A DNA stretch of 64,000 bases from Synergistaceae bacterium (lineage in GTDB: Bacteria > Synergistota > Synergistia > Synergistales > Aminithiophilaceae), in the NCBI GenBank assembly GCA_016756725.1, contig JAESII010000006.1, forward strand, positions 108,688-172,687. The letters are read 5' to 3'. A program made the translations under genes and the position numbers. The notes under the pieces were generated by a model, which saw only the letters and a program-made list of their open reading frames with translations, ran no database searches and was not told the origin of the DNA. This document shows, in pieces, positions 29,311 to 30,802 of the stretch (positions are counted from its first letter, which is position 1; each line of letters starts with the position of its first letter).

Positions 29311-29595
29311 TCAAGACCGCGAGGAATCATTTTCACCGCCCCGCTCCCGGCGCCGTTCCTCGCGAAGTTCGTAGGCCTCGGCGCCGCGTTTGAGAGATGA
29401 CTCGTCATCACAGATTACGGAGACGATCAGCGTCCGCGAGGGATAGGCGATTTCCAGGAGATCGCCGGCGCGGACCTCCGAGGCGGGCTTGATGGCACGG
29501 CCGCCGAGGCGGACGACCCCGGCCTCGATCATCTCCTGAGCCACCGTCCGTCTCTTGACGAGCCGTGAGAGTTTGAGAAATTTATCCGCCCGCAT
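29311..29595 (-). CDS. S4-domain RNA-binding protein (RqcP/Hsp15-like)
   Basis: This 94-residue protein is almost wholly an S4 domain ([41 protein letters not shown]) with a charged C-terminal tail. It resembles RqcP/YabO and Hsp15, which bind the 50S subunit carrying a stalled nascent-chain tRNA and take part in ribosome quality control. A role in that process is inferred from family. The ATG at 29595 has GGAGG upstream and an extended -10 promoter. Its neighbour is an eRF1-like protein. Confidence 0.85.
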
Positions 29596-29626
29596 GACTT
29601 GATCCTCCAAGCACAAATCGTTGAAC

Positions 29627-29656
29627 AGTATATCAAAGAAAGGGTCAAAGCAGCAA
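29627..29656 (-). promoter_or_regulatory. Extended -10 promoter for S4 gene and eno
   Basis: In an AT-rich gap the minus strand has TATACT (29627-29632) preceded by TGA, an extended -10 arrangement. TTGCTG (29651-29656) lies 18 bases upstream as a possible -35. The predicted start lies near 29620, about 25 bases before the S4-gene ATG. Confidence 0.6.
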
Positions 29657-29677
29657 CGCACAATATTTTAAAACAAT

Positions 29678-30802
29678 TTAAGGAACAAAGCGCAGGAGAG
29701 CGCCGATTCCCTCCCACTCCCGGAGAAGCGAGGGACGGCCCAGGACGAGGGCCTCGCCGTCTTTCTCGAAAACCTGCTGGACGAGGGCCTCGAGAAGGTC
29801 GGGCTCCTCATCCGTCTCGTGGCCGCAGAGGGGACAGGTCGCCTCGTCGATGCCCAACGACCCGCAGCTGGGGCAGCGGACACCCCGTCGCCGTTCATAT
29901 TCCTCGACGACGAGCTGATGGACTCCGCCCCGGTTGGAGGCGGCCAAGACGGCCCGGAGGCCTGCAGCAGCGGGGCCTCCTTTGGGTGCCTCCGAGAGGA
30001 TTCTCACGACGAGGCCCTCTCCCTCCTGCCAGAAACGGGACTGAGCCCACTGATCAAGAAGGGACTGAAGGGCGCCTTCTCCCTTTTCGGGCGATTCGGG
30101 AAGGAGGTCGATCTCTTCGGTGGGGAGCATCTCATGGAGGCGTTCCAGGAGGGGCTGAGTCAGTTCCCGGGCTCCGAAGACGAGAAGCCGCCTGAAGGTC
30201 CCTTCGCCGTAGAGTCTTTTCGCTTCCGCCGCCGCCTCCCGAAGGAGACGGGCCGTCTCCTCGTCGCCATGACGTTCGATGCGCCGTTCCTCCATACCGT
30301 AGCGCCCCCCCGCTTTGATCCTCGGGGGAAACTCGACGTCACGGCGCGTCATGAGGGTCAGCTCGGCACCGTAGCGGCGGAAGAAGAGGATCGCCTTGCT
30401 TTCGACGACGACAACGAGGGTCTCCCGGAAGGGCGAGAGAGCCTGGATGAGGGGAAAGAGGCGCGGTCTCGGGCCGAGGCTGGCCTCTGCGGCCACCGAG
30501 GCAGGGAGCGGCAGGGTAAAGGGTGGCGACTGGGGACTCACGAAAAACGACCATCCCCTGGGTAGATCTTTCGAGAGATCTTCGACGCGGGGAAAAACCT
30601 TTTCCAGAAGGTCCCGCATCGCCTCCTGGTCCTCCCGGGACCAGTCCTCGACGAGGCGAAGGGCATCGCGGTTGAGGTTCTTGAGGGCAATGACGATCTC
30701 CTTGGCCGTACGACGTCCCCTGTCGGTGTCGCTGTAGAGGGAAAGGACAGCGGAAGCCGGGGCAAACTGATCCAATACCTCTCTGACCACGGTCTTTCTC
30801 AT
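29678..30802 (-). CDS. Bacterial eRF1-like (baeRF) protein with zinc ribbon
   Basis: This 374-residue protein resembles the bacterial archaeo-eukaryotic release-factor (baeRF) group. Residues 1-125 form an N-terminal alpha-beta domain. Residues about 128-235 match eRF1 domains 2 and 3, with VVVVESKAILFFRRYGAEL and the loop RIKAGGRYGMEERR, where eRF1 has its GGQ motif. Here the third position is arginine (GGR, 165-167). A zinc ribbon follows at 310-326 (CPSC...CPLC). The role may be in ribosome rescue or hibernation, which is inference. It sits 42 bases after rpoD and just before the S4-domain gene, with GGAGGTGA upstream of its ATG. Confidence 0.72.
   Translation of the reverse strand: MRKTVVREVLDQFAPASAVLSLYSDTDRGRRTAKEIVIALKNLNRDALRLVEDWSREDQEAMRDLLEKVFPRVEDLSKDLPRGWSFFVSPQSPPFTLPLPASVAAEASLGPRPRLFPLIQALSPFRETLVVVVESKAILFFRRYGAELTLMTRRDVEFPPRIKAGGRYGMEERRIERHGDEETARLLREAAAEAKRLYGEGTFRRLLVFGARELTQPLLERLHEMLPTEEIDLLPESPEKGEGALQSLLDQWAQSRFWQEGEGLVVRILSEAPKGGPAAAGLRAVLAASNRGGVHQLVVEEYERRRGVRCPSCGSLGIDEATCPLCGHETDEEPDLLEALVQQVFEKDGEALVLGRPSLLREWEGIGALLRFVP

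Follow-up and report, generated by a model that had tools for sequence, protein, structure and literature searches.

Introduction

Known Balon proteins inhibit translation and are linked to stress, RaiA/HPF binds together with Balon, and a hairpin insertion in the Balon C domain has been tied to the binding of EF-Tu(GDP) (PMC10901736). The bacterial insert has been proposed to be a degenerate zinc ribbon by Burroughs and Aravind, who also describe baeRF family 10 as keeping a conserved glutamine (PMC6514570). The S4-domain protein RqcP contacts H69 through Arg2 and Arg16 (PMC8373112). A literature search made largely outside the subscription journals, and therefore weak as evidence of novelty, returned no paper that brings together Balon and a zinc ribbon, or ribosome hibernation and the Synergistetes.

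The window analysed here, a 64,000-nucleotide stretch of contig JAESII010000006.1 from a Synergistaceae bacterium, encodes a 374-residue protein (RF in the following) that an earlier note had likened by eye to eRF1 and had combined with the adjacent gene for an S4 protein into a two-gene module for ribosome rescue or hibernation. The features of RF are as follows.

29678-30802, minus strand: gene of RF, a Balon-like / baeRF_family10 protein of 374 residues (open reading frame, Pfam, NCBIfam, profile, model and fold search); N domain, residues ~1-110; middle domain, ~113-233, with the GGR loop at 165-167; C domain, ~240-374
30281-30316, minus strand: loop and helix start KAGGRYGMEERR (residues 163-174), at the GGQ loop of aRF1 (alignment, relatives)
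29825-29875, minus strand: codons of the zinc ribbon, Cys310-x2-Cys313-x9-Cys323-x2-Cys326 (family alignment)

Family assignment and fold

The open reading frames of RF and of the adjacent S4 protein lie where the earlier note had placed them, and the residues that it named (GGR 165-167; Cys 310, 313, 323 and 326) are correct. Both frames are preceded by good ribosome-binding sites, the Shine-Dalgarno sequence of RF being AGGAGGTGA, 6 nt upstream of the start.

RF is not an orphan. Its residues 113-226 match the Pfam family baeRF_family10 (PF18854) with 50.4 bits, above the gathering cut-off of 27.1 bits; the same family is matched by 21 of the 21 members of the RF family. The best NCBIfam match is NF052288, the MSMEG_1130 (Balon) ribosome hibernation factor (E 2.7e-21, residues 10-372), which is likewise matched by all 21 members. 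The score of RF on this model, 76 bits over the full length, fails the equivalog cut-off of 480 bits, and by sequence RF is a homologue, not an equivalog, of the MSMEG_1130 family. Besides Synergistota, relatives of RF occur in Calditrichota, KSB1, Atribacterota, Thermodesulfobacteriota and Planctomycetota, those outside Synergistota having been gathered with a search pattern that covers part of the loop-helix stretch.

A phmmer search of the PDB with the single RF sequence gave only chance matches to zinc ribbons, and a profile was required. The profile built from 21 sequences placed Balon MSMEG_1130 at the top (1.3e-28), followed by aRF1 (3e-17), Pelota, Rv2629 (1.6e-12), eRF1 and the Balon of Psychrobacter urativorans (6e-8). 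The AlphaFold2 model of RF is confident (pLDDT 89, pTM 0.84), its confidence being lowest at the loop tip, residues 165-167, the only part below 50. With this model, Foldseek ranked ribosome-bound Msmeg1130 (8v9j/8v9l) first (E 5e-24, TM 0.78-0.81), with lower TM values for Rv2629 (0.75), P. urativorans Balon (~0.65), aRF1 (0.50) and, below these, Pelota; the three-domain aeRF1-like fold is thus present in the model. Since the profile search and the fold search both rank Msmeg1130 first, sequence and fold agree on RF. The by-eye likeness to eRF1 was real: the family profile aligns with aRF1 (4af1), and neither search placed residues 128-235 outside the eRF1 fold. RF is a member of the eRF1/Pelota superfamily that lacks GGQ and probably binds ribosomes.

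The GGR loop

In the profile alignment, the family sequence ...vpgkvkeaGwYGLEErR... stands against ...VPGKQRKGGQS---AQR... of aRF1 (4af1), the third loop residue corresponding to the glutamine of GGQ. This position is occupied by Arg167 in RF, as the earlier note had it; the arginine is, however, limited to the genus of the window and is not typical of the family. Of 28 distinct relatives, 21 have W there, four R, two F and one Y, and none has Gln, so that the particular significance which the earlier note saw in GGR does not carry over to the family. The residue that follows the loop tip is mostly Y, with Q in three of the 28 (GGRQ, AGYQ) and R in two, so that Gln is not conserved there either. 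The RF sequence contains neither GGQ nor an NIKS motif. As no glutamine is conserved at the catalytic or the following position, hydrolysis of peptidyl-tRNA by RF is, judged from these alignments, very unlikely.

The helix start G.EE[RT]R..R that follows the loop is nearly invariant among the relatives; in the distant ones this is partly so by construction, because part of the stretch served as the search pattern, outside which the W/R loop position lay.

The zinc ribbon

In the C domain, the insertion of RF at the aligned site of the Balon hairpin is a Cys4 zinc ribbon. Three of its cysteines are invariant in 21 sequences and the fourth is replaced by Asp in three. The earlier note had taken the ribbon for an addition, which it is not: the profile alignment places the aRF1 zinc ribbon at the same C-domain insertion site, where the insert of Msmeg1130 is cysteine-free. 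On the alignment, the RF family is seen to keep the undegraded form of the ribbon, and by analogy with the Balon hairpin this ribbon may contact EF-Tu. RF-type proteins, carrying an aRF1-like ribbon at the site of the Balon hairpin, support the degenerate-ribbon proposal (PMC6514570) and offer a way to test how the EF-Tu contact evolved. They also add to the Balon group a zinc-ribbon form, found in Synergistota and in several uncultured phyla.

The locus and the neighbouring rqcP gene

The genes around RF and the predicted promoter are the following.

32008-33801, minus strand: dnaG (primase)
30845-32008, minus strand: rpoD (housekeeping sigma factor), 42 bp upstream of RF
29627-29656, minus strand: putative rqcP promoter, TTGCTG, 18 nt, TGATATACT (extended -10), ~31 nt before the rqcP start (sequence prediction, conservation)
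29311-29595, minus strand: rqcP (yabO) orthologue, S4-domain protein of 94 residues (Pfam, nearest solved structure, genome survey)
27986-29269, minus strand: eno (enolase), downstream of rqcP
27287-27946, minus strand: rex (redox-sensing repressor), downstream of eno

The start of rqcP is best placed at the ATG at 29595, with GGAGG just upstream. The nearest solved structure to its product is that of Bacillus subtilis YabO/RqcP (E 5.6e-12), and the window protein combines an S4 domain with Arg2, Arg11 and Arg16, the first and last of which are the H69-contacting residues of RqcP. In the survey of Synergistota, rqcP was found in 61 of 61 genomes and RqcH in 58 of 61; RqcH was not found in the 83%-complete assembly of the window itself, and it was found in its three congeners.

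RF is present in 15 of the 61 genomes, a count from which two further weak matches (G009 and G033) were left out as belonging to the other Balon type. At all 15 loci it is flanked by rpoD and rqcP, starting in the window 42 bp after rpoD. Its position thus holds, but rqcP stays in place when RF is missing, many of the 46 genomes without RF retaining rpoD-rqcP-eno or rpoD-rqcP-rex. In the other phyla, no rqcP was found beside the RF relatives. Moreover, the extended -10 site TGnTATACT before rqcP is conserved in the genus of the window and in its relatives, whether or not they have RF, and no comparable site was found in the region before RF. Given the presence of rqcP in genomes that lack RF and the conserved predicted promoter between the two genes, a two-gene module is not supported: an obligate RF-S4 pair was rejected, and RF and rqcP are probably not a dedicated module. 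With a predicted promoter before rqcP, none found before RF and RF so close behind rpoD, the sequence evidence is best read as two units, dnaG-rpoD ending with RF and a second one opened by rqcP, and RF seems to be expressed from the first rather than with rqcP. A relative of Balon is thereby tied to a housekeeping sigma-factor operon, not to stress genes.

In the tree, all Synergistota RFs lie on one side of a fully supported branch, which together with the fixed locus points to vertical descent at this site, accompanied by losses, or to a single early insertion. As side observations, a conserved promoter-like TGnTATACT site lies upstream of rqcP in several Synergistota families, and in one genus (three loci) dnaG directly adjoins rqcP, and rpoD, missing from its usual place between the two, seems to have moved.

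Distribution and neighbours beyond the RF locus

A Psychrobacter-type Balon (NCBIfam NF052287, E 1e-30 to 1e-43, under the cut-off) was observed in four Synergistota families. It occurs in 11 of the 61 genomes, none of which is among the 15 with RF (hypergeometric P = 0.03 by genome and 0.21 by genus). Given the value by genus, the mutual exclusion is only suggestive; the two types are distributed as if they substituted for each other.

Among the neighbours tested in other phyla, no RaiA/HPF gene was found beside RF relatives; the neighbours encode IF-2B/PNP/a small exporter, a GalT-like protein, ClpB, a sigma factor and NusG. At five Atribacterota loci, the RF relative lies within ~10 bp behind, or overlaps, a gene of ~350 residues; in L046, the one tested, this gene belongs to the IF-2B family and is preceded by genes for a small exporter and a nucleoside phosphorylase. 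The search for plasmid-borne relatives gave no match for RF itself. An Azospirillum plasmid encodes a distant relative (L096:2893-4122, annotated as hypothetical) with a zinc ribbon and no GGQ-region loop motif; its gene adjoins a sigma-factor gene, with dnaJ and a universal stress protein gene nearby.

Function

Homology, fold, the loss of the glutamine, the conservation of ribbon and helix and the genomic position were all observed for RF, and from them we infer ribosome binding, EF-Tu contact and a role in hibernation. By analogy with its nearest relatives, RF is best explained as a zinc-ribbon Balon / baeRF_family10 protein of aeRF1 fold without release activity that probably hibernates ribosomes, a reading to which we assign a probability of roughly 0.7. 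As in Msmeg1130 and Balon, the N domain would occupy the decoding centre. The middle domain would bring the GGR loop, which is mobile, up to the peptidyl-transferase centre, no peptidyl-tRNA being hydrolysed there, and the arginine-rich helix behind the loop would hold on to rRNA. The C domain, ribbon included, would be turned to the stalk side, on which the Balon hairpin contacts EF-Tu(GDP). In favour of this reading also count the RaiA/HPF gene of this genome and, weakly, the separate distribution of the two Balon types. Against hibernation stand the score far under the equivalog cut-off, the housekeeping neighbours in place of RaiA or stress genes, and Arg31-Arg32, which fall on the decoding-centre HP of P. 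urativorans Balon when the two N domains are matched by eye without gaps. HP is, however, not common to all accepted Balons, since Msmeg1130, a characterized Balon, also lacks it at this position. Of the rescue or hibernation role put forward in the earlier note, hibernation thus gains from the rank of Balon in the profile and fold searches, while the RF-S4 module falls away.

Pelota, too, lacks GGQ, and a rescue factor of the Pelota kind, engaging stalled ribosomes, helping to split them and feeding 50S-peptidyl-tRNA to RqcH/RqcP, would suit a phylum with RqcH in which RF always adjoins rqcP (15/15). Such a role is nevertheless unlikely: Balon fits RF better than Pelota by structure and profile, rqcP has a putative promoter of its own, 46 of 61 genomes have it but no RF, and it is not found beside the RF relatives of other phyla. 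MutS2 and SmpB, near-universal in the sample, are present whether or not RF is, so that RF fills no rescue gap; there was no sign of its replacing a missing rescue or splitting factor. A zinc-ribbon Balon acting as a bacterial Pelota, which engages stalled ribosomes, recruits EF-Tu or another factor through its ribbon and passes the product to RqcH/RqcP tailing, would link hibernation with quality control if true, and we regard it as quite improbable.

The housekeeping operon, with RF 42 bp after rpoD and no promoter of its own found, would also accord with an A-site ribosome-binding protein that is expressed with dnaG-rpoD and has another role, such as antagonizing RelA or guarding ribosomes in growth, and the authors of the Balon study leave further roles open (PMC10901736); as other Balons are stress-linked and inhibit translation (PMC10901736), this is as unlikely as Pelota-like rescue. 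Most improbable is an active alternative release factor with a different catalytic loop residue: the conserved glutamine claimed for family 10 (PMC6514570) and the three relatives of 28 with Gln one residue later would speak for it, but the loop tip is Arg in the genus of the window and aromatic elsewhere, and the variation at the next position leaves nothing catalytic conserved. Balon-like hibernation, by a catalytically inactive factor in the A site, remains the preferred reading.

Comparison with known systems

The window rqcP shares with B. subtilis RqcP (YabO; 7aqc, 7as8) the S4 fold family (E 5.6e-12) and Arg2, Arg11 and Arg16, but has different gene neighbours. The middle domain of RF belongs above the gathering cut-off to PF18854 (Burroughs and Aravind, 2019), yet RF and its relatives lack the conserved glutamine of that paper at the GGQ position (0/28). 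Pelota/Dom34 is not the closest match: the fold search puts Balon and eRF1/aRF1 before it, the profile search Balon MSMEG_1130 and aRF1. Archaeal aRF1 (4af1) can be aligned with RF over the middle and C domains, and its own ribbon sits at the corresponding insertion; in contrast, RF lacks GGQ, its N domain cannot be aligned by sequence and the whole-chain TM is 0.50. The P. urativorans Balon (8rd8, 8rdv, 8rdw) has the same fold (TM ~0.65) and no GGQ, whereas RF has RR for its HP motif and the RF family has a zinc ribbon and an rpoD neighbourhood. The mycobacterial Balons Msmeg1130 (8v9j, 8v9l; TM 0.78-0.81) and Rv2629 (8v9k; 0.75) share the full-length three-domain fold of RF and, like it, lack GGQ, the Rv2629 loop AGWNG resembling AGWYG of the RF family; they differ in sequence, with 22% identity, and the C-domain insert of Msmeg1130 is without the cysteines of RF.
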